NCBI GenBank assembly: GCA_022925895.1
Contig: JAKSYS010000235.1
Coordinates: 1 to 64,000, forward strand
Direction of reading: 5' to 3'
From: Fragilaria crotonensis
Lineage: Eukaryota > Bacillariophyta > Fragilariophyceae > Fragilariales > Fragilariaceae
Length of the DNA: 64,000 nt
Shown here: positions 9,385 through 54,791 of the stretch, one piece after another
Layout: each line of letters opens with the position of its first letter
Numbering within the stretch: position 1 is the stretch's first letter
The notes under the pieces: model-generated
What the model saw: only the letters and a program-made list of their open reading frames with translations
What the model was told of the DNA's origin: nothing
Databases searched by the model: none
Translations under genes and position numbers: made by a program

Positions 9385-10811
9385 TACAACCTTTGTTGCT
9401 TTCATTCACTTTGTCTTTGCCCCTTTTGTTGTCATCCTCGTTGGCTGAACATTCGGAGTCGGAGATGTTCTTGGATGAGGACCATTCTTCATTCCACTTT
9501 GTGATGTCTCTTCTCTTCATAGCTTCGGGTACTCTATCAATTGTGGTGAGAAAGAAAAGATTTGAGCAACAACCACTTTTGTTCACTAATCCCACTTAGT
9601 AAAGTCGAATAATTGGCGCCCATATTGCATGTCCTATTGCTTGTTCCAGAGTCAATTTGACCGGGTGTCTAACCATAAATCATTGCGGAAAAGCGCTGTA
9701 CTACTGTGGTTTGTGGTAGCTAAGCTACCTCCTGCTAGAAAGAAACATTGTAGTCGTGTAAATGGATGGAGGCCTCCTAGTCGTATAAGCAATTATTGTG
9801 ATGTGAAGATGTTTATACAGCACAAGTTTGCCACAAATTGTGCCAGTAAACCTCACAATTAAATGGTGGGAGTGCTCCAATCATGCTTCTTGTTCATGCT
9901 CACCAAGCATGAAGCGCATGTTCTTTGTGTACAATTGCATTTTTGGGGGCAGTTCACCTAAGCACTGATGCTTTAGATTTGGAACTTACATCCTACTTTG
10001 TGCCATGAATGTATGTCATCAGCATGTTGCCTTTTTTGTATATGAATTTAGCACATTTGTGGCAACCCAGCTAAGTACGGGGTATGTTGCCGTATCATGA
10101 TTATGTACAATATTAAAAATATAGTATGATTCTCTCACACATGGTGTTCTTTGGTTTTGTACTTAGACATCCTTGGGGGAAGGAATGTTTTGGCCTGGAG
10201 TCCCGCATGAGCAAATGATGTCTTGGATACTATAGTATTGGTTTCATATGAATTGATACTATTATGCACAAGTTGTTGCTTTGACAAACTAGGGACGTCC
10301 ATACTTGTTGCTTTCTTTGTGACTGGCACACATGTAAGGATTTCATTCATTCTTTGTATGAAGAGGGGGAACTGCTTGCTTTCTGGCTTGTTGTGGGAAC
10401 TCTAGTTTGGTTGCCTACTTCTGCCCAAACAGGGATATGCAATTTGTCCTTTGTGACAATGTGCTGCCTCCTCATCACTAAAATGTGAAGAGGGGTATTG
10501 CTTGCATGGGAACTGTGGAATGGTTTTTTTTTCAGACAAGGGTTAGAAACTTGTCCTTTTTAATCACGTCGCTGTTTCACGACCCTTCTCATGTTTGTTG
10601 ATACTCCACGTGATTGCACTAGGATCACTAGGTTGCGGCTTACGCACCCGGCGCAAAGCTCTGTCTAAGCCACAGGACGCAATCCGAGTGCGGCTGGGGC
10701 TGGTGCACACCGTGATGGCTGTAAACTGACCTGGAAAATGTGCCCATTTTTGTTTGCTTTAGCGGCCCATTATGACAAAGTATGAACTGAAATGCAGAAA
10801 GCAGCGTGAAA
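9385..10811. other. Unassigned AT-rich stretch
   Basis: A minus-strand frame at 9595-9293 crosses the element X boundary. It reads MKRRDITKWNEEWSSSKN, then a run of acidic and polar residues, and might be an exon or part of a longer element X protein. Nothing else is recognisable. 10560-10740 is locally GC-richer but shows no RNA gene I can fold by eye. Confidence 0.3.
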
Positions 10812-11007
10812 TGATACTGACACGTAGCGTACTATACTGTCACAAGCGCGAAACCAACATACTCCGGAGTACAAAATAGTAATGTGAGCACGGAAGCTTA
10901 CATTCGTACTGAGTCGCGGTTGCAGTCCCGCATTGATATAACGGTCTTTGCCTTGATGAAAACACGGGAACAGGATTGCCGAATTGACAATCCCAGAAGA
11001 CCAAAAT
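10812..11007 (+). repeat. Copia fossil left LTR, first piece
   Basis: It aligns with 22168-22363 of the right LTR (shared words CGTAGCGTACT, CACAAGCGCGAAACCAACAT, GAGTCGCGGTTGCAGTC, GATGAAAACACGGGAACA). The match stops at the inverted end of the DNA transposon. The right LTR acts as the empty site. Confidence 0.75.
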
Positions 11008-11130
11008 TACAATATCACACAATTTTTTGCCACTTTGCAGCTTAGTACACCAATGACTTACTTTCCACAAATTTGAGTTTTACTATGTACTACATTCACA
11101 TTTGTATTCTACAATATCATGCATTCTTTC
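11008..11130. repeat. DNA transposon left terminal inverted repeat
   Basis: Its reverse complement aligns with 17066-17184 over about 120 positions. Shared blocks include AATGCATGAT, AATACAAATG, CAAATTTGTGGA, AGTAAGTCAT, GGCAAAAAAT and GTGATATTGTA. Confidence 0.8.
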
Positions 11131-11154
11131 GTCCACATGTTTTAAATCACGAAT

Positions 11155-11350
11155 TCCTACAGGTGTTACATAAGCTACAGCAATTTCCCTGTTCTTAGGA
11201 ATTTATTTTTACCAATGACCCCGGAATGTCTTAAAATGAAATTCCAATTGGTGCCACATTTCTTAAATGCAAAGTTCTCAAGGGTGTCACATTATAGGAT
11301 TCTGTCTGGTGTTTGAGAAATAAAATTCCCATTGACGTCGCACTGGGAGG
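11155..11350. repeat. Subterminal GGTGYCACATT-type repeats
   Basis: Just inside the left inverted end, related words recur at intervals of some 40-60 bases: AGGTGTTACATAA, TTGGTGCCACATTTC, AGGGTGTCACATTAT and TCTGGTGTTTGAG. They alternate with AAATKCCAATT-like words. Repeated subterminal motifs of this kind are often transposase-binding sites in DNA transposons. That role is inference, and I did not find an equally clear array at the right end. Confidence 0.4.
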
Positions 11351-12577
11351 TGGGGTAACCCGTTCCATATCATGCGCATGTGTGCATTTTGAGTTTTTTT
11401 AGGTAGTAGTACTAAGGAGTACAGTGCTTTTCATATGCGAGTAGCGTAGTATGTACTATGGCACACTGTACACTGTACCAAATCATAAGTCGTGATATGC
11501 ATAGAGTCTACAATTTCTGTGCAGTGGAATTATACAGGGTACAAGTACGGGGTAATATAATTCATGCTGTTAATGGGCCCGTCAGAGCCAACGGTGCGGA
11601 GATCGAACTGAATGCGGCTGTATCTGTATCTGCAGGTTGACGTATGAACATACTGTAGCTGTATCAGGTTGCATTCCATTGCACATGCTTCCTATGTATA
11701 CGCCACTGTATGCATCCTATAATTTGTACTCTGAGAGAGTACAGCTTATTCGATCGGTAGCACACTGGTATGCATAATGCACATGTCTCCGAAGTGACTC
11801 CTTTGTACTATGCCCTACTGGTATCGTACCCAATGCCAGTTAGCACCAAAAGCCGTACTCCAAGTCTGACATTAACACTGTCTCCAGTACTGTACAATTG
11901 TACCGCGTCTTCGACAAGGTCTATGAAGATTTCTGCATTCCCCATTTCCAGTAACCAGTAACCTACACCTGACAAATAGGCATGCTACTAGTACAAGTAC
12001 GGAGTATTGCTTTTCGACGTATTACATCGTGTTGTGTCAGAAAGCTTGAAGGGCTCAATCTGCATGGATGTTTTAATGTCACACGTGAGCAGTACCAGGT
12101 ATGCACGGCATTCGACACCGTAGTCTGCAGTATATATGTATTCATATATGTATACACAACACGGAGTACCGCATTATCGAAGTTGGGTCTAAAACCATTT
12201 TCGAAGCTTTTGTTTGTAGCAGTATATCATAGCCGGTAGGGATTTCAACTTGATCGAGGATAAACGCTCGTGCTGTCGTATGTTACAAACCGTAGCGCCT
12301 ATAGTCGGAGTGCTGCTAGTACAGTTCTACAACAAGTTGTATTGCTCCCACTAATTGTAGAAGCACTGCAGCAAGTTGTATTGCTCCTACTAACAAGCAA
12401 CAACGGCATCAACAGGCATGTGGTGACACAACCTTGTCCTGTTCATGATGCACGCACCCAATTTGGCCAAGTAAGGGTCCCTCTCTTGACGTAAGCGCCG
12501 TGGCTGCGGTCCTGTTGGTGCGGTGGTGACAAATCTAGAGTAATACATCAGTTAACATTTTGTTACTATCATTTAGA

Positions 12578-13550
12578 TTAGTACCTGCACTGAAAGGGTC
12601 GTTCGCCGCTTTCAAAAACTATCTGCGTGATGACAACGACAGCACAAAAAGCAAGCTTATGTTTGTGACGAAAGTGGCGCCACTTTTGTCCCATGCAACC
12701 CCATTGTTTCAATCTACGATTCACCGTCTCATGACGAGCCCTTGCACGTCCTTTTGCACGTCTGTCAGTTCGGGAAACAAAATCATCTGGAGTCCGTGCC
12801 TTCACATCTCGGCCCCTGTATCCCCGATCAGCTTCAACTAGCTCGTTGACGCCGAGATGATGCATGAGACCCTCCTTGAAAATCTTGACATCAGGATACT
12901 TTCCGCACTTGAATGGTCCATTCACCCATACAATGTCACCAGTTTGGATGCATACTGCTACTTCATACCGAATTCCAGGTCCCCGAAATTTGTGACTAAA
13001 CCACTGAGAGTCAAACGGGGCGGGCTCCAAAATCGGGAAATCGACGCCGTCAACAGCAACTTTGCACGTTTTCCCCCTGTCTGCACGAAATCTGTTCTCC
13101 CAACGAATCTAGAGGATGGAGTGCACACACAAGACAAGTTTAACAAGGTGTCGAGGGCACTGAAATGATGTTTGGGAGTAGTACTTACCACATGACGTTT
13201 CTTTGCTGCAATTATCGAAACAACCTGCCATGCCCACAAACGAAATGATTTTCGAGTAACACCAGCCATCGTTGCCAGGATGGGCTCAGTGGCGTATGTG
13301 TTGAGGAATAATAAACCCCACAATAGATGCTTGGGAAGGATATTCTTGGCGAAAAGTTGTCTTGGCAAAGCGCCCAAATTTTCTGACACACATGAGCGTT
13401 GACACCAAAATGAGCGCGGAAGTCCCTCTCAAGAACATGGTTTCCAGGCATCATCTTGCTCCTTAATATGAGGCATGCTTCAGAAAGGAACAATGTTTCA
13501 TCAGTTGGTGCCCTTGTAGCATTCATTGTTGAGGTTGCCGTGAATGACAC
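12578..13550 (-). CDS. DDE transposase (IS5/PIF-Harbinger-like), spliced
   Basis: This would cut and join the transposon's ends. The C-terminal exon (13108-12578) carries the DDE core: VDGVDFPI (first Asp, near 13051), NELVEADRGYRG (second Asp, near 12829) and RHETVNRRLKQWG (Glu), then a VITQIVFESGE tail to the stop. An 80-bp intron with GTAAGT donor and CTCTAG acceptor (13188-13109) joins RHV to IRWENRF in frame. The exon before it holds PKHLLWGLLFLNTYATEP and RKSFRLWAWQVV, the helical N-terminal region typical of this family. Further upstream, FRAHFGVNAHVCQKIW reads in another frame, so one frameshift lies near 13360-13385. The start is uncertain: the open frame begins at GTG 13550, and the first in-frame ATG follows eight codons later. 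It is transcribed toward the left end and diverges from the second gene. Confidence 0.75.
13109..13188 (-). other. Transposase intron, 80 bp
   Basis: The donor GTAAGT follows ...CGTCATGTG, and the acceptor ...CATCCTCTAG precedes ATTCGTTGGGAG. Removing it joins the two conserved halves of the transposase in one frame. Without splicing the DDE core lies in a different frame from the helical region. Confidence 0.75.
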
Positions 13551-13879
13551 GCCTCGAATTGTTTTTCGGCTCTGATTTGCAGCACCTTGGCTTCTTCAGA
13601 ACGTGTAACAACGCGCAACAGTGTTTACTTGCACATCAATTGTGGTCGAAGACAGAATTCTGCATGATGCTGTCAGTCCTGGATTGGATTGCCAGCTGTA
13701 GAATTTCATCGTGGACTTTTGTGATAATCATGACGTTCGGGTGCAGATAAGTCGAACCACAGCAACGACTGCTCTCTTAAAATCTATATTTGATGGCTTT
13801 TTTCTTATGCATGCCTCATGCATTATGTATATATTATATATGACGTACTATATACGATAGTATCTTGATAAGCTCGCTC

Positions 13880-14235
13880 GTCAACTCGCATCATAAGGAT
13901 TTGCTTCGCTATTGTTCATATCCAATCATGAATATGAGTTACTTAAAGGTTTACGTGCATTCGAAAAGCATGCAATAGAATTCTCGAGAATGCGATTGTA
14001 TTCTCGAGCATGCGATCGAATGCGATTCTTTTATCAAAACGTTTTTAGTAGTTTTAGTTTCATACTGAACAACGTCTGGCCGGCTCGAGTGCATTCCATT
14101 GCATGCTCGAGAATTCCATTGCATGCTCGAGAATTCTATTGCATGCTCGAGGATTCGAAAGCACGAATTGGATTATGCTTCGCAACTAGTTATGGATATA
14201 TGATATTTAAATGATCACACGAGTGGATATGAACA
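13880..14235. promoter_or_regulatory. Palindromic 20-bp repeat array between the divergent transposon genes
   Basis: Three head-to-tail 20-bp units lie at 14093-14112, 14113-14132 and 14133-14152 (ATTCCATTGCATGCTCGAGA with small changes). Inverted versions of the same unit occupy 13959-14027 (AGCATGCAATAGAATTCTCG, TTCTCGAGCATGCGATCG). Outer arms also match in inverted order (TTGTTCATATCCAATCA near 13912; its inverse near 14230). The whole forms an imperfect ~350-bp palindrome centred near 14055, between the transposase and the second gene. It could be a bidirectional promoter or operator, or a protein-binding site for transposition. The function is inferred from position only. Confidence 0.55.
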
Positions 14236-14571
14236 TTCAATATACAATAAATAATCGTACTGCTATCTCGTTAGTACTCTCTACTCTAGCTCTAGTAGAG
14301 GACCTTGTCCTGGTGTCCTGGTATGATACATGATACTAGTACCAGGTACTAGTACTACAAATTCTATACATCCAGTAGTAACTACTGGCTACTATGCGTC
14401 AAAACACAGAACATTTGAAGCCGCCAAAGATCAATCCAAAACTACAAAATACCGGAGAAGCAACACCTGTACAAGTATGGAAAAGTCTCACTTTCATTTT
14501 TTTGTTGATTTGAATTTCACCGTCGTTTCCACTTTGTCAATGATCTCTGATCGATCTTCACACTTCTCATT

Positions 14572-16309
14572 ATGCCAGCGCAACAACAAGCTCGCGCTCG
14601 CTGGAACATCAACGGAGAAGAGTCAGCGGCAATCTTCGGTGCAATCCACAACAAGCTGATCACCATCGATCCGCAGCGGACATCAGTGTCGCAACTCACA
14701 CCTGTCATCGCAAGCTGGCTTCGGGCGAATCCATCTTTGGAACGCAAGTTCGGAGGACATAATTTTCGTTGCAATTTTGGAAAGAACTTTCGGGAACGTA
14801 GTTGCACGTTACGAAAAGTGGCGGAGTGAACCGAGTAAGAAGGTTTATTGCTTCTGTTGCTTTGTTGACCGGACTTGTCACTGACACATTGTCAACAGGC
14901 AGTGGAGGTAAAGTTCCGGCATCATTTCTTGAGCTAGCAAACGTCAGCATTCCAGCGCGGAACGAAAACCGAAATCGAGGATTCGAAGACCAACCTGGAA
15001 GTGATTCGGACAATCAAAGTTTGTCGATTATTGGTGGAGACGACGACGACGATAACAATAATTTGAGTGGTAGTGACGACGACGACGACGACGAAGGGTC
15101 AACACTTACAGCCGGAAACGAAACTTCTCCCAACAACAGCGACCCCGAAAATTTTCAAACTGTATGTCCTTCCGTGCATTTGACCTTGTTGTTGCTTCTC
15201 TGGTTTTTTATCTGTCTCATGCATCTCACCCTTGTGTCCAGCAGGCTGTTGCTCGTTTATCCCTTGCAGATAATAAGCCATCTACTAGGATGTTTGTAGA
15301 CTCATTCAGTGGACCAAATTTTGTCACTGATGCACACGATGGTGGTGTCTTACAACTGACCCAGAAGTCGGTTGGCATCTTTGTGTTTCTGGAGTCTGGG
15401 ATGGACATCAGCACTCTCAAACACAAGGTTGTAATTGTTCCGAAGAAGCATGCAAAGATTTTTGTCGAGGTCAAGCAGCATCTCAACATGCTTGATCCTT
15501 TTCTTCTCACACCAGTGGAATCTGCAGGTTGTGAAGAATTTGTCAATTGCGTCCGTGCGTACCTCCAAGAACGACAACGCAAAGGTGGGCACATCATCAA
15601 GGCCGAGGCAACCATCAACGGTGATTTTGAGGAGGGCTTGGTACAGCCCATAATGCAAGCCCCTGGAGGGCCATGCCGATACAAGGCGATGCCCTCCAAC
15701 CTCTCTCCATTTAGAATCTCTAATGTCGGCGGGACAAGCCCCAACCATTCTCAGGGCGTAGTTCTGACAACTTTGTTGTTGTGCAAACTCCACAGGGACA
15801 CCATCAATGCACTCCGAACACCTGAGTATGCAATGCCAATGATGATGGCAAGGTCTCCTGGGTTTGCCAGTCCACCACCCCATAATTCTTCGTTTACAGG
15901 AAGTGCAAGCTATCACCATCATTCTGCTGGCAACTCGCGCTATAGTGGTACAATGGCAGCAGGAGATCAATACTCTGATCCACATTCCGACGGTCGCCAA
16001 TTTGAAGGACCGCCAAATCCTTCTCCTGGTGTTGCTTCATTTGCTGGTGAGACTCCTCAGACACCTGGATACAGCGCTGTTTCTTCTGGAAGGGGAAGCG
16101 CTGTAAATGCTGCCAACAGGACCATGGTCTCCACCGTGGTGGGCGGAAGACACAGATATGGCAGAGGAAGAGGGAGAAAGGAAAATCACTCCGGTCAAGC
16201 GTGTTCGCCAGAGTATGTGAGTGCTGAGTTGTTTGGCTTGACGAGATCCTCAAGTAAATGTGGTGGTGCCTGCGAATGTTCTGCAACTGGTTGCAGCTCT
16301 GTCAATTGA
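14572..16309 (+). CDS. Second transposon gene, unknown function, three exons
   Basis: Predicted exons are 14572-14797, 14899-15161 and 15242-16309, giving about 518 aa. The ATG at 14572 opens an Ala/Gln/Arg start, then a helical segment (SQLTPVIASWLRANP, KFGGHNFRCNFGKNF) that could bind DNA. Exon 2 holds two Asp-rich runs (GGDDDDDNNN, SDDDDDDEG). Exon 3 has a globular-looking part (DSFSGPNFVTDAHDGGVLQ, KHVVIVPKKHAKIFVEVKQH-like), then a Gly/Ser/Pro/His-rich tail ending in a basic GRRHRYGRGRGRK-like patch and a Cys-rich end. Intron 2 (GTATGT...GTCCAG, 15162-15241) is convincing. Intron 1 is less sure: a donor at 14798 keeps the frame, but GTAAGA at 14835 is stronger and would need one base change. 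It may be the accessory DNA-binding partner usual in Harbinger-type elements; no MYB/SANT or YqaJ motif is visible. Confidence 0.55.
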
Positions 16310-17065
16310 ACAGGGTTACAGAGAAAAAGTAGTGATTATAGCCTTACTAGCACTTCTACTACTCTACTATTATTCATTCACAATGTAGTTCCAATTCAGA
16401 ATATCTCTGTGATGGTTTTGGTGAAGGCTTTGCGTGTTGACTGTGGCATATCTGGTGTATGTATAGAGTTCTCCAAACTCGTTGTGCGTATACGCACCTA
16501 TTCGTTTCAGGTACAACGTACGAGTACCAATTGGAGTACACTCCTATACTGAGTACTGTATATCGTATATCGTATATCGTACATCCAATGCAAGTACAGT
16601 GTGATTGTTCTTGGTTGGCCGGTACAAGTACGGCGTAGTACACAATGCTCGGTAAAATTGAGCTGCGTTGCTCTAGAATGCACACGTGCGCATGATATAG
16701 AACGAGTTACCCCATCTCCCTGCATACAGGAAATTTGTGTAGAAATACTGTCATCTTGCAACAAGCACATCATCAGCGGTGTTGTATTCATGTGAAAACA
16801 TTGATGATGTGCCTCTTAACCAAATTATGACCAATATGCAGGGTTGGAGATGACAAAGTTCAAAGCAGATGATGGCTTGGAAGTAAAAGCATTGGACGTG
16901 AAATGAAAGAGAAATCGACCATGATGCAACAGTCATCAGTTGTAATTTTTATGTTCATTACAACACCGTGTACCATGCTGTCCGTGGAGGTCGAGCATGG
17001 CAGGCAACAAAAGCGTGATATAGTAAAAGATGGCAAAAGAATGCGCAATATTGTCAATGCTTCTT

Positions 17066-17184
17066 TTCAAAATGCATGATACTGTAAAATACAAATGCAA
17101 ATGTAGAATATAGTTAAATACAAATTTGTGGATAGTAAGTCATGGTACTATATTGTAAAAAGGCAAAAAATGCGTGATATTGTA
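17066..17184. repeat. DNA transposon right terminal inverted repeat
   Basis: Inverted match to 11008-11130, ending GTGATATTGTA. It is followed by AT and then the remainder of the interrupted LTR (ACCCCCTACTTAAAAACATAC). Confidence 0.8.
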
Positions 17185-17186
17185 AT

Positions 17187-17274
17187 ACCCCCTACTTAAA
17201 AACATACTTTCGTAAAAGCCCTTTAGTTTGTACTTTTGTCATCACTTGTTGATAGCACGACACCAAGTAAATCA
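17187..17274 (+). repeat. Copia fossil left LTR, second piece
   Basis: It aligns with 22344-22431 of the right LTR (shared TAAAGCCCTTTA, TTTTGTYATC, ATGTTGATAKCACGACACC). Together with 10812-11007 it gives a ~284-bp LTR, against 264 bp for the right copy. Confidence 0.7.
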
Positions 17275-17326
17275 AACGCATCCTCTGCACAAGTATACAA
17301 AGAAGAAAACAAGGTAAAGTAGTACC

Positions 17327-22167: not shown

Positions 22168-22431
22168 TGGTACTGACACGTAGCGTACTGAACTGTCACA
22201 AGCGCGAAACCAACATAGTGTGAGCGCGGAAGCTTACATTCGTACTGAGTCGCGGTTGCAGTCGCGCATCAAAATTACGGTCCCTCCCTGGATGAAAACA
22301 CGGGAACACGATTGCCGAATCAAAAATCCCACAAGACAATCTAATCACAATACTTAGAATCATACTTTTGTAAAGCCCTTTACTTCGAAGTTTTGTTATC
22401 AAATGTTGATATCACGACACCAAGTAAATCA
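22168..22431 (+). repeat. Copia fossil right LTR
   Basis: It starts TGGTACTGACACG right after a purine-rich stretch (AGCAAGGAGGAGTG) and ends near CCAAGTAAATCA. It is the uninterrupted reference for the split left LTR. Confidence 0.75.
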
Positions 22432-30454: not shown

Positions 30455-32239
30455 GGTGGCAGAATTTTATCTACAATGTACAAAGATATGACAAAGACAT
30501 GGCTGATGTCTCAAGGACTGCTGAACCACATGATAGCATAATATATTTTGTACGCAACAACATTCAACACCTGATTTCTTTTACTCTTATACATCTCAAT
30601 AATATAAGAAGGGTATATTGTTCTCCAATTCTTCAGTTTTGTAATTACTACTAGTAGCTAGTACAGCTGTAGGTACCATATTTTGAGTATGTTTGCTGAA
30701 AGCATCGGCATCACAGCCATAATAACAGATTCATTTCTTATTGTTTACTTAGCACCATGTTTGATCCAAAGTGCATGAATTTAGTCACTTACCACTGATG
30801 CCTTGGTACAGTCAGGAAAAGCAATAGAACCTTAGGTTCTTCATTCCTGCTACAGGGGATTGTCAATGCACCAGCCAACCACCAGGTAATAATCCATTGG
30901 GCATTATATCATTTTTGCAATCAGGGATTCTATAAGGCCTCCATCATGGTTGCATCAGGGATTCTATCAAGTCTGCTACTATTGAATAGCTATTAAGGAG
31001 TATTCCATTCGACAAGCCACCATGCAAGCATGACATGAGGACAGGCAGTCCATTGGTTGTCAAATCATCTCTCCATCCAACTGTCAATTAAGACACTGCT
31101 GAGATTCTCAACATCAATGTAGGCACATTTTACTCCAAGTGTTCAACAGGTGGAAATGCCATTGAGTGTGCCTTGATGATTGCATCAGCTACCCAGCCAG
31201 TCAGGAATTGCTTCAATCCAGCTCTCGTCAGTCTGAATGGTATTTCTGGGTCAGTCAGACAAGGGATCCGTTTTGCCATCAAAAATTCCATATGATGCAC
31301 CCATTGATGTTTGCAAAACTTCCTCCCTACTGCCAACTTTGCCCGCCATGATGCCTTGCTTGGTCATCAGCAAATCTCAAATTTGAACTACAATTTAGTA
31401 TTCCATCTAGTTACTAGTACTATTCCATTGCGTCACCGATATTCCTCCATCATTGTTGCAGTCAGGAATTCCCTCAACCGCAAGCCTACCATCAAGCATT
31501 CCATCTGACCAGCCAAGTGATGATCCACCAGACAGTCCAATGATGGTCCCACTCACTATACATACAACAGTAGATCAAGAAGTTGAGATTCCTAACACTC
31601 CTCCCCAAGTTCTCCGAGTAGTGTAGATGAATCTGAGACTCCATCGATTGTGCCTTTAGTGATTCCATCGGATACATAAGCATCAGGAAATCGCAATCTC
31701 ATCAATCTCTCATGAATTGTTGGTGATGACACGTCCCCAAAGGATACAAGCTTCGTCAAAGGATGTTGCTGAGCTCGTCATTGGTTTGCGCTGCATGTAT
31801 GTACTCGAAGTACACTTCTACTACTACCTCTTACTCCGAGTACCTCGTATTAGCTACTGTAGGAGTACTCCAGTACGTGCGGAGTATTATGCATATGATA
31901 CGCATTATGCGTACACATACACCGGTTCTTGCGTTCTTCGGTTCTTGCGTTCTTGCGTTCTTGCGTGATTCACCTCCCCTTGAAATGAGCGTAGTCCAAG
32001 TAGACTTGTGATGCACTGGATTTAAATCTCCTGTAGAAATGTACTAAGTTGGTACCTCGCGCTTTTGGATACTTTGCCTATTCATATTTGTCTAAGGCGA
32101 ATAAACATTTTCAACACGGATGGAGTGATGCAGACGAATGACATAATCCTCGAGTACTTGTAACTTGTACATGCTACTCGACAAGTCCGTTCTTTGATCT
32201 CCCTCTTTTCCACCTTGCCAATTATCCTTCTAAATCTGG
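30455..32239 (-). other. Region with degenerate repeated words upstream of glycosyltransferase A
   Basis: 30830-31720 is full of related words on the plus strand (CAGTCAGGAATT, AGGGATTCTATCA, CCATCATTG, AGCATTCCATCTG). They read on the minus strand as scattered peptides such as IPDCNNDGG and SDGITKGTI. This could be a decayed repeat-protein gene or an ordinary degenerate satellite. Copy B (47820-48720) keeps the same pattern. 31790-31920 is a GTAC-rich tract followed by a short CTTGCGTT tandem run near 31928-31965. The last ~200 bp before 32240 should hold the glycosyltransferase promoter, but I see no defined element. Confidence 0.3.
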
Positions 32240-33652
32240 ATGTTTAAAGGGTTTGGAATGCGTAAGTATGGACTGCGAGTAGCTGGGCTTCTCGTTTTGA
32301 CGACCCTGTGCTTGCTGTGTGCGGCGCAGGTGTCGGTTTTGGGCTGGGGACTGGTGTTTGACGCTAGGCCATGCGAGAGGCATCAGCTCCCTTTACTCGA
32401 GAGCATTTACCTCCCATTCCTCCCGTTCGACGACTCGGCCCTGCACCCCGCGCCCTACACTGACGACGAGACAGACATCGACCGCCTCCTTAAACTGTGC
32501 CATAATGGTGACTCGCTCATGATCACCGCTCAGTTCCAAGCCTCGGGAGATACTGCCCGCTCTGTCTACGAGCGCACCTGTTTTCCCTTGGAAATCGCCA
32601 CCACCCAGGGCGCCAGGTCAATGGGCCACTGTTCCGACTTTGTCCAATACATCTATTTCGCCGGAGCGAGGCTGTCCGATGATTACGGCGCCGAAGCAAT
32701 CCTACAACATGCACGCCAGTGCCCCAATAGCTCCTTTTTGCATGGAGAGTATCCGCAACCTGATGTTTTCAAACTACCTGGTGTTCGCAATTATTGGATG
32801 CCCAACATTGAACAGGTTAATAAAGAGCAGGAGGAGCTTATACCATTAACGTATCGATTCCTGGGGAAAACTCACAAAGCCGTCGAGGTTATCCGGGATT
32901 ATTTGAAGAAGCATTCGTTGCCTGATACCACTCGGTTTATCTCACACACATCGCCTGATCCGCTTACCCCTCGCGCCCGCCAAACCGAACGCAACTTTGA
33001 TTCCTTTTACCACGGGTATGGTCATAGCGGTCGAAAAAGCACGCCCGAGCTGCTCCGATGCTGGGCCAGAAACCCTTCATTTCCTAACTTGACAGTACTT
33101 GGCCAATTTCCTTTGCCCAGGTTTCGAAACATTCCAAATATTAATCTTGTTGAGGGAGTTGTGGATGTGGACCAATTGAGAAGGATGCAGCGCAGTGCAG
33201 GTGTACATATTTGTCCTTCGTCCATGGAGGGGTATGGCCATTATATTTCTGAAGCTAGGGGTATGGGTGCGCTAGTGGTGACGACCGATTTTGGACCCAT
33301 GAATGAGTTTGTCGTGCCCCACTATTCTGGTGTGCTGATCCGACCTGGCGACGAGGCGGACGAAGCTTATATGGCCTTGGACCATGTAGCCGTGCGTCCC
33401 GTGACGAAAAACATTTGTGATTCGGTTCGGGAAGTTTTGAAGATGCCTTTGCATCAACGCAAGCTATATGGAGACCGAGGACGGAGATTGTATGAAATTT
33501 TTAGAGAGGAAATGAAGCATAACCTTCGTGAATTGAAACGAGAGACTGTGGAACATTTTTCATCCAGCGAGGATAATTCAATGAGCCAGGTGGATATAGA
33601 CAGTGTCATTTCAGAATGCAACCGGAAGTTGCACGAGGCGAAGGCGATGTAG
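32240..33652 (+). CDS. GT4-type glycosyltransferase, membrane-anchored, copy A (intact)
   Basis: 470 aa, single exon. An N-terminal signal-anchor (residues ~11-35, LRVAGLLVLTTLCLLCAAQ) predicts a type II protein of the Golgi or ER, with the catalytic part in the lumen. The C-terminal half resembles a GT-B fold donor-binding domain: CPSSMEGYGHYISEARGMGA contains the E-x7-E pair (Glu330, Glu338) typical of retaining GT4 enzymes, followed by VTTDFGPMNEFV and a glycine-rich loop (SGVLIRPGDEA). The family transfers a sugar from a nucleotide donor; donor and acceptor cannot be told. The ATG at 32240 gives the signal anchor, and a second Met at residue 7 would also work. A near-identical copy at 49188-50599 has a frameshift. 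Confidence 0.75.
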   Translation: MFKGFGMRKYGLRVAGLLVLTTLCLLCAAQVSVLGWGLVFDARPCERHQLPLLESIYLPFLPFDDSALHPAPYTDDETDIDRLLKLCHNGDSLMITAQFQASGDTARSVYERTCFPLEIATTQGARSMGHCSDFVQYIYFAGARLSDDYGAEAILQHARQCPNSSFLHGEYPQPDVFKLPGVRNYWMPNIEQVNKEQEELIPLTYRFLGKTHKAVEVIRDYLKKHSLPDTTRFISHTSPDPLTPRARQTERNFDSFYHGYGHSGRKSTPELLRCWARNPSFPNLTVLGQFPLPRFRNIPNINLVEGVVDVDQLRRMQRSAGVHICPSSMEGYGHYISEARGMGALVVTTDFGPMNEFVVPHYSGVLIRPGDEADEAYMALDHVAVRPVTKNICDSVREVLKMPLHQRKLYGDRGRRLYEIFREEMKHNLRELKRETVEHFSSSEDNSMSQVDIDSVISECNRKLHEAKAM

Positions 33653-33705
33653 TGGCAGGCATAATTGGGTTCTAAAACAAATACTATACTTCTCTTCAAG
33701 AGTCA

Positions 33706-34311
33706 TCGCAGTCCTTGATTGACGGAGGTCCATTGGGACCAGGATGTGGAAAAGCAGTAGAGGCGTGGACTGGAAACTGGCTCTGGCGATTTGCCTATCC
33801 GACAGAATCGTCACCACTCACGCTCGGTCCATGGCCGTCGCTCGTGACGTGGGTTATTGTTGCGATTCTGTGCGGTCTAACAAACGGAATTCTGTTCCTC
33901 TGGTCCCATCGCTGTCAGAGTCGAGGGAATCATGTGGGAGTGATTACTATGGTCGAGTCATCGGGTGGGCGAACACTCTCCCATGCCGAAAACGCTTCAT
34001 TGTTCGCATGGGCCCTGGTGAATGCAATATGTGAAGAAGTTGTCTCTCGAGGATTCTTTCTGCACGAATTCAAACGACGTGGTGGTGTTACCTTCTGGCA
34101 GGCCAATGCCTTACAAGCCACTAGCTTCGGAATATGGCATTTTCATGGTATTCCCAGTGGTTGGACTGGAGTGGGGTTGACATTCGTATATGGTCTGGTC
34201 ATGGGGTTCTTGCTGGAATATGGAGGCGGATTGCTGTTGCCGATCGTAGCTCACACGATCGCAGATTACTTTATCTTTGCTGTCATTGCACGACAAGGAA
34301 AGTTCATGTAA
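33706..34311 (+). pseudogene. CPBP/CAAX-type membrane protease, 5'-truncated copy A
   Basis: It matches the complete gene at 51895-52707 from codon ~70 onward (SLIDGGPLGPGCGKAVEAW) to the stop, keeping EEVVSR, FGIWH and HTIAD. The first ~69 codons are absent. The sequence before 33706 is instead the 3' flank of the glycosyltransferase, as in copy B. There is no in-frame ATG near the junction (the frame runs from a TTG), so it is probably not expressed as a full protease. It converges on the PGAP1-like copy with about 180 bp between stops, the same arrangement as in the complete pair. Confidence 0.7.
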
Positions 34312-34493
34312 TTGCGGCAACGTCACCAATTACTGAGTACTAGTGTGCCAGATCGAACGTGCCTTTCGGAAAGGCTTCGCGTTCACACGGTAACTTCAAG
34401 AGGGGGAAACTAGCTTTCAACGTGTTTAGTATGGTCCAGAATCACTTCGATTCTATGATAATGAACATCTTTATTTGACTAAATGACATTGTA

Positions 34494-36147
34494 CTAGAAC
34501 CTCAGTTTTGGGCCGACAACACACGAGCAATTTCTATCATAGAAACCCACGCCAGGTAATAACCAACCAGGTATGTACCTCCGGCGAAACATTCCCGGAG
34601 CAAAGACCATTGCATTCAGGGCATGAGCAACAATGAAGACTGGTTGTTCAGAATTCCTCGTTGCCGGCTTACCCACTACGAATCGAATTGCTATAGGAAC
34701 CAAAATCTTGATGACAAATGGCAGCAGTACAATCTCGCCATAGTCGTCCACGAAGCTCCACCCGATGAGGTACAATTTTCCAAAAGTCAACACGGGAATA
34801 GCAATTATCGTGAACGCGGAAAACAGGATGCTGCGAGAGTCGAACACGTTGGTGCGAGTCAGAGGTGCAAAGGAAAGATATATTGCGAGACCCACAAACA
34901 GTATGGAACTCGCTTGGAACCTTGGAGTTTTGCCAATAACCAAGCCCGCGATCACAACTACCAAGCAAACCGCGGTCGACAGAAACACAACCGTGGTCAG
35001 GGTCGCGATGGTACTGGAACGCATCGTCAAGTCATTCTTCGAGAATTTGTTTGGAAGAAACGAAAGAACCTTTCGAATTCCCCACAAAAGTGAGCTGGCG
35101 ATTAGTGAGAGTATCAGCACTGATGGCAAAGATTGGTGGCGATTCGACAGGAACGCCGACAACGTGGCAATGTACCCAACCCCAACCAAAGGTTTCAGAT
35201 TCGGCGCCGCCAAGTAAAAACCACACAGCAGCGAGTACATGATCAGCAAAAGATCAAAGTTGTAAATCATTGCGGATTCCAATGCAACAAAACTGGCATA
35301 CCCGCGCTGCGTGGAGTACCGTCTCTTTTGCTCTTCAACGAAGAGGGCGTAACTTCCATTAACTGTGCCAACTTGCTCCACCACCGACTTGCGATCTGCG
35401 GTCTCATCTTGAGAGAGGACAAAAAGGATCTTTCGCGCCTTGTCGAGTACTTGGTGGCACCAAACAATGGCCTTGTGGTCCATCCCGAACGAGGTACCGG
35501 CAACTCTTGATACACCCACAGTGGCTTCACATAAAGTAGAAGGGATGAGCTCATCCTTCAGTCCTCCAGAGATGGATGTTACCAGAATGCTATCACTTAG
35601 ATATTCCAGATCGCGATACACGTCGCGTATGCTTTCATCGAAAGCATACGGCGATGCAACGTGAGGTGTAGCCAGAGTGATAATGTTTCGTATCTTGTCC
35701 CCGACCGATGTAACATATACGGGGACTGCCTTGGCAACTAGCCCTCCAATGGAATGCCCCACCAGCGTTACAGTCGACACGCCGCAGTCGGTGGCGAGCT
35801 GCCTCACTACCTGTGCAACATATTTGCTTTGGCTTCGAATCAAATTTCCATGCAATGCAGCCCCCTGTTCGGCAAAGTCTACGCAATAGACTTCATATAC
35901 AAAGTTCTCCTCGATCGGCAATGCCATTGCGCAATGTTGCACCATCTCGCAGGGATTTGAGGACTGTGGCTTCGTTCGTGTCCCTTTGTCTTGTCAGTTG
36001 AATTCCGTGCGCCCCCAGGGAACGGCATTGCGTGTAACTTCCCCAATGACCAGGAATGTAGAGGACAACAAATGGATCGGCAGCGCAGTGGCGTTGAGAA
36101 ATATCTTGGGGATTGGCAGCGCCAGCGCCTCGGCGATTGAGCAAATG
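34494..36147 (-). pseudogene. PGAP1-like GPI inositol-deacylase, damaged copy A
   Basis: Counterpart of 52903-54791. The N-terminal ~80 codons, including the signal anchor, are missing because homology stops at 36147. A 2-bp loss near 35910 (TCCTCGATCGG against TCCTCGCGATCGG) separates the IPGHWGSY region from the lipase core. The remaining ATG frame from 35945 (483 codons) still holds GHSIGG, ATPHVASP and the multi-spanning membrane domain. Another 2-bp difference near 34583 changes the last ~35 residues. It is probably a pseudogene, though a shortened protein is possible. Confidence 0.75.
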
Positions 36148-36470
36148 TAGGAACTTGAAGTTTATCTGAGGTCTTGCATTAGATGTCTGGAACCCCAATT
36201 GCAAACCTTTTCTTCTGACATTGATGCCGACAGTGGCTTTTCAGGACTAAGTATGGGACCGTGCTTGCACACAATTTTGCTCCTATGTGTTCGAAGCGAC
36301 GAATGGACGTCGGTGAAATGGGTGAACTGTTGGTCGGAAGGTCCAATTCTCGGACAGGTTGTGAATTAGGTGTTGCATTAACATGCAAAAGCGAGCAACG
36401 GAAAGTGGTTGTCTTCGGATTCAAGACCCAAACCGTCCACGGGTTTGAGATTCACCACTGCATTCCATGG
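36148..36470. other. Shared 3' spacer of copies A and B
   Basis: Matches 50936-51267. A minus-strand frame is open in both copies, but most differences between them change the amino acid, so I do not call it a gene. Confidence 0.6.
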
Positions 36471-47490: not shown

Positions 47491-47495
47491 AGATG

Positions 47496-49187
47496 TCTCA
47501 AGGACCACTGAAACACATGATAACCATAGTATATTTTGTACACAACAACATTGAACACCTGCTTTCTTTTACTCTTATACATCTCAATAATATAAGAAGG
47601 GTATATTGTTCTCCAATTCTTCAGTTTTGTAATTACTACTAGTAGCTAGTACAGCTGTAAGTACCATGTTTTGAGTTTGTTTGCTGAAAGCATCGGCATC
47701 ACAGCCATAATAACAGATTCATTTTTTATTGTTTACTTAGCACCATGTTTGATCCAAAGTGCATGAATTTAGTTGCCTACCACTGATGCCTTGGTACAGT
47801 CAGGAAAAGCAATAGAAAACCTTAGATTCTTCTTTCCTGCTACATGGGATTGTCAATGCACCAGCCAGCCACCAGGTAATCCATTGGGCATTATATCATT
47901 TTTGCAATCAGGGATTCTATCAAGTCTGCTACTATTGAATAGCTACTAAGGAGTATTCCATTCGACAAGCCACCATGCAAACATGACATGAGGACAGGCA
48001 GTCCATTGCTGGTTGTCAAATCATCTCTCCATGCAACTGTCAATTAAAACAATGCTGAGATTCTCAACATCAATGTAGGCACATTTTCCTCCAAGTGTTC
48101 AACAGGTGGAAATGCCATTGAGTGTGCCTTTGATGATTGCATCAGCTACCCAGCCAGTCACCAGGAATTGCTTCAATCCGGCTCTCATCAGTCTGAATGG
48201 TATTTCTGGGTCAGTCAGACAAGGGATCCGTTTTGCCATCAAAAATTCCATCTGATGCACCCATTGATGTTTGCAAAACTTCCTCCCTACTGCCAACTTT
48301 GCCCGCCATGATGCCTTGCTTGGTCATCAGCAAATCTCAAATTTGAACTACAATTTAGTATTCCATCCAGTTACTATTCCATCGCGTCACAAATATTCCT
48401 CCATCATTGTTGCAGTCAGGAATTCCCTCAACCGCAAGCCTACCATCAAGCATTCCATCTGACCAGCCAAGTGATGATCCACCAGACAGTCCAATGATGG
48501 TCCCACTCACTCTACATACAACAGTAGATCAAGAAGTTGAGATTCCTAACACTCCTCCCCAACTACTCCGAGTAGTGTAGATTGTAGATGAATCTGAGAC
48601 TCTATTGATTGTGCCTTTAGTGATTCCATCGGATACATAAGCATCAGGAAATCGCAATCTCATCAATCTCTCATGAATTGTTGGTGATGACATGTCCCCA
48701 AAGGATGCAAGCTTCGTCAAAGGATGTTGCTGTGCTCGTCATTGGTTTGCGCTGCATGTATGTACTCGAAGTACACTTGTACTACTACCTCTCACCTCGT
48801 ATTAGCTACTGTAGGAGTACTCCAGTACGTGCGGAGTATTATGCATATGCATACGCATTATGCGTGCACATACACCGGTTCTTGCGTTCTTGCATGATTC
48901 ACCTCCCCTTGAAATGAGCGTAGTCGAAGTGGACTTGCGAATTGTGATTTGTGATACACTGGATTTAAATCTCCTGTAGAAATGTACTAAGTTGGTACCT
49001 CGCGCTTTTGGATACTCTGCCTATTCATTTGTCTCAGGCGAATAAACAATTTCAAGTTTCAACACGGATGGAGTGATGCAGACGAATGACATAATCCTCG
49101 AGTACTTGTAACTTGTTCATGCTACTCGACAAGTCCGTTCTTTGATCCCCCTCTTTTCCACCTTGCCGATTCTCCTTCTAAATCTGG
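47496..49187. other. Copy B counterpart of the region upstream of the glycosyltransferase
   Basis: It aligns with 30506-32239, including the degenerate repeated words (47820-48720) and the GTAC-rich tract (48760-48870). The short CTTGCGTT run is reduced here compared with copy A. No gene is recognised. Confidence 0.6.
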
Positions 49188-50599
49188 ATGTTTAAGGGGT
49201 TTGGAATGCGTAAGTATGGACTGCGAGTAGCTGGGCTTCTCGGTTTGACGACCCTGTGCATGCTGTGTGCCGTGCAGGTGTCGGTTTTGGGCTGGGGACT
49301 GGTGTTTGACGCTAGGCCATGCGAGAGGCATCAGCTCCCTTTACTCGAGAGCCATTACCTCCCATTCCTCCCGTTCGACGACTCGGCCCTGCACCCCGCG
49401 CCCTACACTGACGACGAGACAGACATCGACCGCCTCCTTAAACTGTGCCATAATGGTGACTCGCTCATGATCACCGCTCAGTTCCAAGCCTCGGGAGATA
49501 CTGCCCGCTCTGTCTACGAGCGCACCTGTTTTCCCTTGGAAATCGCCACCGCCCAGGGCGCCAGGTCAATGGGCCACTGTTCCGACTTTGTCCAATACAT
49601 TTATTTCGCCGGAGCGAGGCTGTCCGATGATTACGGCGCCGAAGCAATCCTACAGCATGCACGCCAGTGCCCCAATAGCTCCTTTTTGCATGGAGAGTAT
49701 CCGCAACCTGATGTTTTCAAACTACCTGGTGTTCGCAATTATTGGATGCCCAACATTGAACAGGTTAATAAAGAGCAGGAGGAGCTAATACCATTAACGT
49801 ATCGATTCCTGGGGAAAACTCACAAAGCCGTCGAGGTTATCCGGGATTATTTGAAGAAGCATTCGTTGCCTGATACCACTCGGTTTATCTCCCACACATC
49901 GCCTGATCCGCTTACCCCTCGCGCCCGCCAAACCGAACGCAACTTTGATTCCTTTTACCATGGATATGGTCATAGCGGTCGAAAAAGCACGCCCGAGCTG
50001 CTCCAATGCTGGGCCAGTAACCCTTCATTTCCAACCTTGACAGTACTTGGCCGAAATTCTTGCCCGAGTATCAAAACATTTCGAATATTAACATTATTGA
50101 GGGAGTTGTGGATGTGGACCAATTGAGAAGGATGCAGCGCAGCGCAGGTGTTCATATGTGTCCTTCCTCGATGGAGGGATATGGTCATTATATTTCTGAA
50201 GCCAGGGGTATGGGTGCGCTAGTGGTGACGACCGATTTTGGACCCATGAATGAGTTTGTCGTGCCCCACTATTCTGGTGTGCTGATCCGACCTGGCGACG
50301 AGGCGCACGAAGGTTATATGGCCTTGGACCATGTAGCCGTGCATCCCGTGACGGAAAACATTTGTGATTCGGTTCGGGAAGTTTTGAAGATGCCTTTGCA
50401 TCAACGCAAGCTATATGGAGACCGAGGACGGAGATTGTATGAAATTTTTAGAGAGGAAATGAAGCACAACCTTCGTGAATTGAAACGAGAGACTGTGGAA
50501 CATTTTTCATCCAGCGAGGATAATTCAATGAGCCAGGTGGATATAGACAGTGTCATTTCAGAATGCAACCGGAAGTTGCACGAGGCGAAGGCGATGTAG
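49188..50599 (+). pseudogene. GT4-type glycosyltransferase, copy B (frameshifted)
   Basis: Nearly identical to 32240-33652 (for example LLGLTTLCMLCAVQ against LLVLTTLCLLCAAQ in the anchor). The frame is continuous from the ATG at 49188 to about 50045. A single missing base in the TTGGCCGAAATTCTTGCCC stretch then moves the rest, including the intact E-x7-E region (CPSSMEGYGHYISEARG), into another frame that runs to the same stop at 50599. Upstream translation would give 312 residues without the donor-binding half. The divergent bases cluster around the frameshift (50040-50100), which may mark a gene-conversion tract or an assembly error. If it is a sequence error, both copies could be active. 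Confidence 0.75.
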
Positions 50600-50652
50600 T
50601 GGCAGGCATAATTGGGTTCTAAAACAAATACTCTACTTCTATTCATGAGTCA

Positions 50653-50747
50653 TCGCAGTCCTTGATTGACGGAGGTCCATTTGGACCAGGATGTGGAAAC
50701 TGGCTCTGTCGATTTGCCTATCCGACAGAATCGTCACCAATCACGCT
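50653..50747 (+). pseudogene. 95-bp remnant of the CPBP protease gene
   Basis: Matches 33706-33810 and 52102-52206 (TCGCAGTCCTTGATTGACGG, TTGCCTATCCGACAGAATCG) with an internal gap of a few tens of bases. It then stops and is followed by ~190 bp unlike copy A. It shows that the CPBP/PGAP1 insertion behind the glycosyltransferase predates the A/B duplication. Confidence 0.75.
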
Positions 50748-51894: not shown

Positions 51895-52707
51895 ATGTCG
51901 GCACTTCCTTCCTTTGTCCCCATTCTGATATCATCGCTTTTACATAAATCATTGCGAAGCCCCTCTTCATTGTATCTTGTTGCGGATGGTTTGGCGGCGG
52001 TGGTCTTGTGGCGATGGTCGAACTCGATTCTGGCTCTCTGGCGTTGGGCCATGAAACCAATACGATTGTGGACTACGATCCCCGGTGTCAACTATCTTAT
52101 ATCGCAGTCCTTGATTGACGGAGGTCCATTGGGACCAGGATGTGGAAAAGCAGTGGAGGCGTGGACTGGATACTGGCTCTGGCGATTTGCCTATCCGACA
52201 GAATCGTCACCACTCACGCTCGGTCCATGGCCGTCGCTCGTGACGTGGGTTATTGTTGCGATTCTGTGCGGTCTAACAAACGGAATTCTGTTCCTCTGGT
52301 CCCATCGCAGTCAGAGTCGAGGGAATCATGTGGGAGTGAATACTATGGTCGAGTCATCGCGTGGCCGAACACTCTCCCATGCCGAAAACGCTTCATTGTT
52401 CGCATGGGCCCTGGTGAATGCAATATGTGAAGAAGTTGTCTCTCGAGGATTCTTTCTGCACGAATTCAAACGACGTGGTGGTGTTACCTTCTGGCAGGCC
52501 AATGTCTTACAAGCCACTAGCTTCGGAATATGGCATTTTCATGGTATTCCCAGTGGTTGGACTGGAGTGGGGTTGACATTCGTATATGGTCTGGTCATGG
52601 GGTTCTTGCTGGAATATGGAGGCGGATTGCTGTTGCCGATCGTAGCTCACACGATCGCAGATTACTTTATCTTTGCTGTCATTGCACGACAAGGAAAGTT
52701 CATGTAA
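51895..52707 (+). CDS. CPBP-family intramembrane metalloprotease (CAAX protease / bacteriocin-processing type)
   Basis: 270 aa, single exon, ATG at 51895. The three family motifs are present: EEVVSR (Glu179, Glu180, Arg184), FGIWH (Phe210, His214) and HTIAD (His252, Asp256). These are the presumed zinc ligands and catalytic residues of membrane-embedded CPBP proteases such as Rce1-type CAAX processing enzymes. Several hydrophobic segments (for example SLVTWVIVAILCGLT, ASLFAWALVNAI, GLLLPIVAHTIADYFIFAV) predict a polytopic membrane protein, in a eukaryote typically of the ER or plastid. The N-terminus (LPSFVPILISSLLH) may be a signal anchor. The substrate cannot be inferred. It converges with the PGAP1-like gene, with ~195 bp between stops. 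Truncated relatives lie at 33706-34311 and 50653-50747. Confidence 0.8.
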   Translation: MSALPSFVPILISSLLHKSLRSPSSLYLVADGLAAVVLWRWSNSILALWRWAMKPIRLWTTIPGVNYLISQSLIDGGPLGPGCGKAVEAWTGYWLWRFAYPTESSPLTLGPWPSLVTWVIVAILCGLTNGILFLWSHRSQSRGNHVGVNTMVESSRGRTLSHAENASLFAWALVNAICEEVVSRGFFLHEFKRRGGVTFWQANVLQATSFGIWHFHGIPSGWTGVGLTFVYGLVMGFLLEYGGGLLLPIVAHTIADYFIFAVIARQGKFM

Positions 52708-52902
52708 TTGCGGCAACGTCACCAATTACTGAGTACTAGTGTGCCAGATCGAACGTGCCTTTCGGAAAGGCTTCGCGTTCACACGTAACTTCAAGAGGGG
52801 GAAACTAGCTTTCAACGTGTTTAGTATGGTCCAGAATCACTTCGATTCTATGATAATGAACATCTTTATTTGACTAAATGACATTGTACTAGAACCTCAG
52901 TT

Positions 52903-54791
52903 TTAGGCCGACAACACACGAGCAATTTCTATCATAGAAACCCACGCCAGGTAATAACCAACCAGGTATGTACCTCCGGCTTGAAACATTCCCGGAGCAA
53001 AGACCATTGCATTCAGGGCATGAGCAACAATGAAGACTGGTTGTTCAGAATTCCTCGTTGCCGGCTTACCCACTACGAATCGAATTGCTATAGGAACCAA
53101 AATCTTGATGACAAATGGCAGCAGTACAATCTCGCCATAGTCGTCCACGAAGCTCCACCCGATGAGGTACAATTTTCCAAAAGTCAACACGGGAATAGCA
53201 ATTATCGTGAACGCGGAAAACATGATGCTGCGAGAGTCGAACACGTTGGTGCGAGTCAGAGGTGCAAAGGAAAGATATATTGCGAGACCCACAAACAGTA
53301 TGGAACTCGCTTGGAACCTTGGAGTTTTGCCAATAACCAAGCCCGCGATCACAACTACCAAGCAAACCGCGGTCGACAGAAACACAACCGTGGTCAGGGT
53401 CGCGATGGTACTGGAACGCATCGTCAAGTCATTCTTCGAGAATTTGTTTGGAAGAAACGAAAGAACCTTTCGAATTCCCCACAAAAGTGAGCTGGCGATT
53501 AGTGAGAGTATCAGCACTGATGGCAAAGATTGGTGGCGATTCGACAGGAACGCCGACAACGTGGCAATGTACCCAACCCCAACCAAAGGTTTCAGATTCG
53601 GCGCCGCCAAGTAAAACCACACAGCAGCGAGTACATGATCAGCAAAAGATCAAAGTTGTAAATCATTGCGGATTCCAATGCAACAAAACTGGCATACCCG
53701 CGCTGCGTGGAGTACCGTCTCTTTTGCTCTTCAACGAAGAGGGCGTAACTTCCATTAACTGTGCCAACTTGCTCCACCACCGACTTGCGATCTGCGGTCT
53801 CATCTTGAGAGAGGACAAAAAGAATCTTTCGCACCTTGTCGAGTACTTGGTGGCACCAAACAATGGCCTTGTGGTCCATCCCGAACGAGGTACCGGCAAC
53901 TCTTGATACACCCGCAGTGGCTTCACATAAAGTAGAAGGGATGAGCTCATCCTTCAGTCCTCCAGAGATGGATGTTACCAGAATGCTATCACTTAGATAT
54001 TCCAGATCGCGATACACGTCGCGTATGCTTTCATCGAAAGCATACGGCGATGCAACGTGAGGTGTAGCCAGAGTGATAATGTTTCGTATCTTGTCCCCGA
54101 CCGATGTAACATATACGGGGACTGCCTTGGCAACTAGCCCTCCAATGGAATGCCCCACCAGCGTTACAGTCGACACGCCGCAGTCGGTGGCGAGCTGCCT
54201 CACTACCTGTGCAACATATTTGCTTTGGCTTCGAATCAAATTTCCATGCAATGCAGCCCCCTGTTCGGCAAAGTCTACGCAATAGACTTCATATACAAAG
54301 TTCTCCTCGCGATCGGCAATGCCATTGCGCAATGTTGCACCATCTCGCAGGGATTTGAGGACTGTGGCTTCGTTCGTGTCCCTTTGTCTTGTCAGTTGAA
54401 TTCCGTGCGCCCCCAGGGAACGGCATTGCGTGTAACTTCCCCAATGACCAGGAATGTAGAGGACAACAAATGGATCGGCAGCGCAGTGGCGTTGAGAAAT
54501 ATCTTGGGGATTGGCAGCGCCAGCGCCTCGGCGATTGAGCAAATGTTGATGGCGAGGGTCTCGGCCGTCGACAAATTTGTAAAGTTTGTACGTCGTACTT
54601 GTTGAGGCTTCGACGGGAATTGGTACATAATTGAGCATCGAGTAAGTCATGTCACATTCATCGCCATTGTGAAATCCTGTCCGCAAGACAAGGCCGTAGA
54701 CAACCAAGAGGACTGCAATAAGATGGAGAACAACCGTCACTGTCACGTTCGCCAGTCTCAGTCGCATCGATGCCCTCCTTCGTCCTTTCAT
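52903..54791 (-). CDS. PGAP1/Bst1-like GPI inositol-deacylase (one apparent frameshift)
   Basis: PGAP1 removes the acyl chain from the inositol of GPI anchors in the ER so that anchored proteins can leave it. From the ATG at 54791: a signal anchor (residues ~14-36, VTVTVVLHLIAVLLVVYGLV), the oxyanion-side motif LYIPGHWGSYTQCRSLGAHG, the hallmark YEVYCVDFAEQGAALHG, and the nucleophile elbow GHSIGG (Ser215). ATPHVASP and DHKAIVWCHQ (likely catalytic His) follow, then a multi-spanning C-terminal membrane domain. The membrane domain lies in another frame because an A-run near 53613 has four bases where copy A has five, so the lipase part ends LLCGFTWRRRI. A homopolymer difference may be a sequencing error; otherwise this copy makes a protein without the membrane domain. 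The TTG frame extending to 54812 is not used as start. Confidence 0.8.

Follow-up and report, generated by a model that had tools for sequence, protein, structure and literature searches.

Is a 6.2-kb stretch that carries two genes between long inverted repeats one transposon, or more than one? The question is raised by positions 11,008 to 17,184 of a 64,000-nt stretch of the diatom Fragilaria crotonensis (assembly GCA_022925895.1, contig JAKSYS010000235.1, positions 1 to 64,000). This whole stretch is termed the window, and all coordinates refer to it. A first-pass annotation had described the locus as a single two-gene DNA transposon with ends of about 120 bp and a 2-bp AT duplication, lodged in the long terminal repeat (LTR) of an older retroelement, and had suggested that it may represent an undescribed subgroup. 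We have searched the window's own assembly (62.1 Mb, 881 contigs) for relatives and conclude with high confidence that the stretch consists of two elements. A two-gene Harbinger-like transposon lies inside a small Mutator-type miniature inverted-repeat transposable element (MITE), and this MITE lies inside the old LTR. All of the nested transposons are of known kinds. Their structure is well documented, and the group of the inner element is likely rather than settled.

Limits and relatives of the inner element

The inner element belongs to the PHIS superfamily of Harbinger-like transposons and extends over 5,374 bp, from 11346 to 16719. It is flanked by a CTG target duplication (11343–11345 and 16720–16722) that was recognised by comparison with empty sites and other copies. 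An inverted-repeat search placed its left repeat, starting GGAGGTGGGGTAAC, at 11346–11388 on the plus strand and its right repeat at 16677–16719 on the minus strand. The two repeats match in 39 of 43 bases; when one arm was shuffled 10,000 times, the highest count was 25. The match between the window and a copy on contig C425 runs from 11345 to 16720 and is interrupted inside. The copy on C240 also matches up to 16720; its contig ends within the element, so that only the right end is informative. The uninterrupted site is found in three short MITEs of the outer family, L019, L020 and L028, with 806, 802 and 755 bases between their ATTAC ends. These align with window positions 11006–11345 and 16720–17186 at 86–92% identity (L028 with only part of the right side). 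In L019 and L020 the site reads GTCGCACTGCATACGG, and L028 agrees; CTG is present once.

Both genes recur in the genome. With at least 50% identity over at least 100 residues as the criterion for the transposase, DDE matches lie on 12 contigs. Gene 2 matches also lie on 12, and 11 contigs carry both genes, divergently arranged in every case. In the same searches C224 carried the DDE gene alone and C12 the core of gene 2 alone, while the N-terminal part of gene 2 was found on those same 11 contigs only (E up to 10). The two-gene transposon of the first-pass annotation survives as a pair, with the DDE gene on the minus and the second gene on the plus strand; that these genes and the long ends form one element does not. 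The annotation had itself named copies with ends elsewhere, 3-bp TWA duplications, or genes never occurring together as findings that would speak against it. The inner copy on C425 does end elsewhere, at 11345 and 16720, and that on C240 at 16720; the duplications are 3 bp long but resemble CWG and not TWA, and the two genes do occur together.

Right flanks are common to C498 and C246 and to C303 and C215, which is why these pairs were not counted as independent insertions. The shared flanks suggest separate haplotypes or duplicated assembly segments. Among the copies with two ends, the flanking triplets are CTG/CTG in the window and in C875, CAG/CAG in C425 and C303, AAG/AAG in C259 and CTG/CAG in C339. 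A perfect 3-bp duplication is thus present in five of these six copies and a CWG pair in four; a TWA or ANT duplication is present in none. Single-ended copies show CAG in C240, C498 and C246. Five elements of the family that were measured are 4.8–5.7 kb long. The inverted ends comprise 43 nt in the window and align over longer distances in C259, C303, C339 and C875, with GGA as the first bases after the duplication. In most pairs of distant copies the synonymous divergence (dS) is saturated or not computable, and therefore we make no claim on selection.

A foldback repeat, found by the inverted-repeat search, lies between the two genes (13954–14165). Stretches 83–90% similar to it occur on 15 contigs besides C240 and C425; one of these stretches, on C224, lies about 2.4 kb from the DDE-only relative.

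The two genes and the group placement

The DDE gene occupies 12578–13526 on the minus strand, with exon 1 at about 13526–13189, an intron at about 13188–13109 and exon 2 at 13108–12578. Splice sites of both genes were read by eye. The protein is an IS5/Harbinger-like DDE transposase, as proposed in the first pass. Exon 2 matches Pfam DDE_Tnp_1 with an E value of 2.7e-4, under the curated cut-off, and the DDE exons of C259 gave no Pfam match. The window protein is 38% identical to C687/C317, which themselves match DDE_Tnp_4 at 61.5 bits. A profile built from the window DDE found no significant match among the genome's top DDE_Tnp_4 proteins (best E 0.061). The aspartates in VDGVD and EADRGY are invariant in four aligned rows, and the glutamate in RHE is invariant in the three rows that reach it; the corresponding D, D and E are present in L065 and L066. 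We take these residues to be the catalytic triad. In a tree computed from DDE_Tnp_4-matching frames (L064 omitted), 11 DDE_Tnp_4 proteins from this genome are parted by a supported branch from the C687-type relatives and from the clade of the window DDE. IS5 changed sides between trees built with the longest frames and with the matching frames of the DDE_Tnp_4 loci, and since its placement is unstable nothing is drawn from it. A scan of viral contigs with the DDE alignment gave no relatives, and a sequence search against solved structures gave no match. Harbinger-type transposases are abundant in this genome: of 333 candidates 150 were scored, and all 150 exceed the DDE_Tnp_4 cut-off. Many of them lie in long open frames. 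Among 14 control genomes, a single one, that of Bacteroides ihuae, also matched in this search.

Gene 2 lies at 14572–16309 on the plus strand, with exon 1 from 14572, introns at about 14835–14898 and 15162–15241, and a last exon that ends at 16309. The first-pass annotation had regarded its product as neither MYB-like nor a YqaJ nuclease; in agreement with this, the gene 2 pieces gave no Myb or YqaJ match in Pfam. For exon 1 no Pfam match was obtained in any of four rows at E up to 10, and the sole signal for the core was a weak one to DUF1583 (E 0.17, one of six rows). Sequence searches against solved structures returned none for the core. For exon 1 they returned six weak matches to assorted molecules, none of them convincing (best E 0.013). 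The gene 2 alignment found no relatives in viral contigs. Exon 1 retains many aromatic residues, and Myb-like tri-helix domains are likewise described as rich in aromatics in the part of PMC9179366 consulted. An AlphaFold model of 75 residues of exon 1 from a single sequence is helical, with a mean pLDDT of 54 that is too poor for a structure search or for deciding the fold; that of the core (mean pLDDT 33) is likewise too poor for a structure search. Judged by its sequence, a Myb/SANT identity of the gene 2 partner is neither demonstrated nor excluded.

Both genes are damaged in the window. Exon 1 of the DDE gene has a frame change near 13355. C425 shares this change, and C303 has one at about the same position; in eight other relatives (C215, C224, C246, C259, C339, C437, C498, C875) the two halves of the exon are in one frame. 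Exon 1 of gene 2 has a frame change near 14797 that is absent from the close copies C240 and C425, and in the diverged C215, C259, C498 and C875 this exon has separate breaks. The window copy is probably dead.

The roles of the two proteins are predicted from those of their families. Cut and paste is the most likely mode by which the inner element moved. The DDE transposase would cut at the GGAG...CTCC ends and join them to a CWG-like target of 3 bp. The gene 2 protein would assist as an end-binding partner, comparable to the Myb-like protein of the Harbingers that have been studied. In these, as PMC2836001 describes in the part used here, transposition requires both proteins, and the second one binds the ends and guides the transposase.

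To which group does the inner element belong? In the sections of Han et al. (2015, PMC4482050) used here, the NuwaI group of PHIS is described by CWG duplications, inverted ends of 12–61 bp that usually start with GGG, and a DDE gene accompanied by a Myb/SANT gene, in 16 animal genomes. ISL2EU is described by AT duplications and YqaJ, and PIF/Harbinger by TWA. Compared with these published descriptions, the inner element comes closest to NuwaI in duplication and make-up. It shares with NuwaI the two genes, the DDE transposase, a mostly CWG 3-bp duplication, G-rich ends and a similar size. It differs in its host, a diatom and not an animal, in a gene 2 that contains no recognised Myb/SANT domain, and in ends that start with GGA instead of GGG. 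Because the Myb/SANT feature and the clade are unsettled, we file the element as Nuwa-like within PHIS and not as a member of NuwaI. The NuwaI literature was surveyed in part, and this survey does not show that CWG elements of diatoms are unpublished. Membership in ISL2EU is ruled out by duplications of 3 bp and not of 2-bp AT, and by the lack of a YqaJ match for the gene 2 pieces in Pfam. The TWA duplication of PIF/Harbinger in the strict sense is found in none of the six two-ended copies.

Three further families resemble the inner element by description. Harbinger4_TP, Harbinger-29_CCri and PIF_Harbinger-1_PI have 3-bp duplications, and their DDE proteins fall near or inside Nuwa according to the part of PMC12730594 consulted. 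Diatoms are known hosts of both Harbinger-like and Mutator-like elements (PMC2806351, as far as consulted). The inner element is a Harbinger-like transposon of such a host. The species codes of the three families presumably include a diatom.

There is a substantial chance, if clearly the smaller one, that canonical PIF/Harbinger or Pangu, and not a Nuwa-like group, is where the inner element belongs. The duplications are not strictly CWG, as AAG in C259 and the TGG and CCG at single ends show. Moreover, the DDE protein was likened to the groups by description, and its link to DDE_Tnp_4 runs through the 38%-identical C687/C317. The CWG pairs in four of six two-ended copies, with neither TWA nor ANT in any, argue for the Nuwa-like placement. 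The DDE protein and its 38%-type relatives also stand across the supported branch from the 11 DDE_Tnp_4 proteins, and the profile comparison (E 0.061) was not significant; neither of these two results places the DDE in Nuwa. A bolder version of the Nuwa-like placement sees in the inner element a diatom branch of the CWG-duplicating PHIS transposons, in which an undescribed second protein replaces Myb/SANT or YqaJ. This protein would combine an N-terminal domain of about 80 residues, rich in aromatics and probably helical, with a conserved core of about 180 residues that has no recognisable relatives. We regard this version as tentative and on the whole unlikely.

The outer Mutator-like element and the nesting

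The long inverted ends noted in the first pass are real and belong to the outer element. They were found by inverted-repeat and genome searches at 11006–11125 (plus strand) and 17071–17186 (minus strand). Their arms measure 73, 27 and 22 nt, with a complementarity of 86, 78 and 91%, respectively. A genome search with the left 145 bases as query yielded 42 matches, among them both ends of the window copy; of 44 candidates, 40 were scored. Around these matches 20 stretches were fetched, two of which are halves of one place on C131. Both ends are present in 14 of the 20, and eight of these loci (L009–L016) are about 7.5 kb long and match the window over only about 220 bases at each end. They form two sets of four copies, L009–L012 being mutually 98–99% identical and L013–L016 99%. 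In L009 and L016 the domain search found PF02902 (Peptidase_C48, Ulp1-type) over cut-off in both and PF03108 (DBD_Tnp_Mut, Mutator DNA-binding) under cut-off in both. PF10551 (MULE) is over cut-off in L016 (E 8e-10) and under it in L009, and PF04434 (SWIM) is over cut-off in L009. On account of these matches the outer family is assigned to the Mutator-like elements (MULEs). L009–L016 lie on C532, C334, C87, C401, C765, C707, C65 and C305, and the Ulp1-type protease is located upstream of the transposase; the opposite strand also has long reading frames. We take the siblings to be Mutator-like elements of the kind with an Ulp1-type protease, with which they share long inverted ends, mostly 9-bp duplications and the domains listed. 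The window copy departs from that kind: it is a short derivative, MITE-like, and its left end is damaged.

The siblings also explain the AT. In them, ATTACAATATC is internal to a longer repeat, whose start reads GGGGAAATTACAATATC with minor variation, and the bases that precede ATTACAATATC are GGGGAA or differ little from it. The AT on both sides of the locus, read earlier as a target duplication, is therefore part of the inverted repeat itself. Directly outside the GGGGAA/TTCCCC termini, eight of 13 two-ended sibling loci have perfect 9-bp target duplications; L013, where the contig ends, was left out of this tally. In the window the right terminus reads ACCCCC, compared with TTCCCC in the siblings, and is followed by TACTTAAAA, which matches TACTTAGAA of the sister LTR. 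At the left, GGGG and the target duplication are missing. Hence the window cannot demonstrate the duplication of the outer insertion, and the sister LTR gives no support for AT at the left end. The left part of the MITE (11006–11345) is 86–88% identical to L019, L020 and L028, and the right part (16720–17192) is 90–92% identical to them (L028 over 362 of 473 bases).

That the LTR is split, with an uninterrupted sister, was confirmed by alignment. Its pieces lie at 10808–11005 and 17193–17280, with approximate limits, and the sister without insertions at 22168–22431, with the limits of the first pass; all three are on the plus strand. We reconstruct the succession of events as follows. A short MULE-type MITE of about 0.8 kb inserted into the LTR retroelement; the 7.5-kb MULE family presumably mobilised it in trans. 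The 5.37-kb two-gene PHIS element inserted into the MITE later and duplicated CTG.

Some observations weigh against parts of this account. Five of the 13 sibling loci have no perfect 9-bp pair: L010, L011 and L017 have perfect duplications of 8, 7 and 7 bp, L016 has 8 bp with one mismatch, and L022, with a degraded right end, has 5 bp. As the left target duplication is lost in the window copy, the insertion of the outer element into the LTR is suggested by its siblings. Among inner copies the two triplets of C339 differ, C259 has AAG at both ends, and the single ends of C437 and C215 are flanked by CCG and TGG, respectively. The part assigned to gene 2 is argued from analogy, and no domain was recognised in the protein.

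Could the composite nevertheless move as one? A MULE might have captured the two-gene element in the manner of a Pack-MULE, and the inner element does sit between MULE ends that a MULE transposase could in principle cut. We reject this as very improbable: the composite is seen once, and a 3-bp duplication flanks the inner element itself, as expected of direct insertion. Inner-element sequence is absent from all 20 fetched outer-end loci, and outer-element sequence from 22 fetched inner-family loci on 12 other contigs; 16 of these 22 loci reach an element end. For a single 6.2-kb transposon that has 120-bp ends and a duplication of the 2 bp AT, there is practically no chance left: in the window the two genes do lie between the long ends, with AT on each side, but this make-up recurs at no fetched locus, and the idea is ruled out by the limits of the C425 copy, by the three MITEs with an empty inner site and by siblings that continue to GGGGAA and mostly show 9-bp duplications. 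With the 6.2-kb limits and the AT duplication, the argument for an undescribed AT-duplicating subgroup falls; such a subgroup is refuted.

Further observations and significance

Elsewhere in the window, 30505–36148 is 94–99% identical to 47492–50699 and 52101–54546, a segmental duplication with several long reading frames. The genome has 19 silicon-transporter matches, 18 of them over cut-off, and the sole control genome that matched stayed under it; a diatom host is thereby indicated from the sequence as well. One of the matching loci, C97:29749–33762, is a single open frame of 1456 residues with three silicon-transporter domains.

The two elements were thus separated before a mistaken composite was filed as a new transposon subgroup. 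Added from a diatom is a PHIS family with well-defined limits, in which most duplications are CWG and the two-gene make-up recurs. Its conserved partner protein, for which no relatives were recognised, may offer a handle on what the second gene of such elements does.

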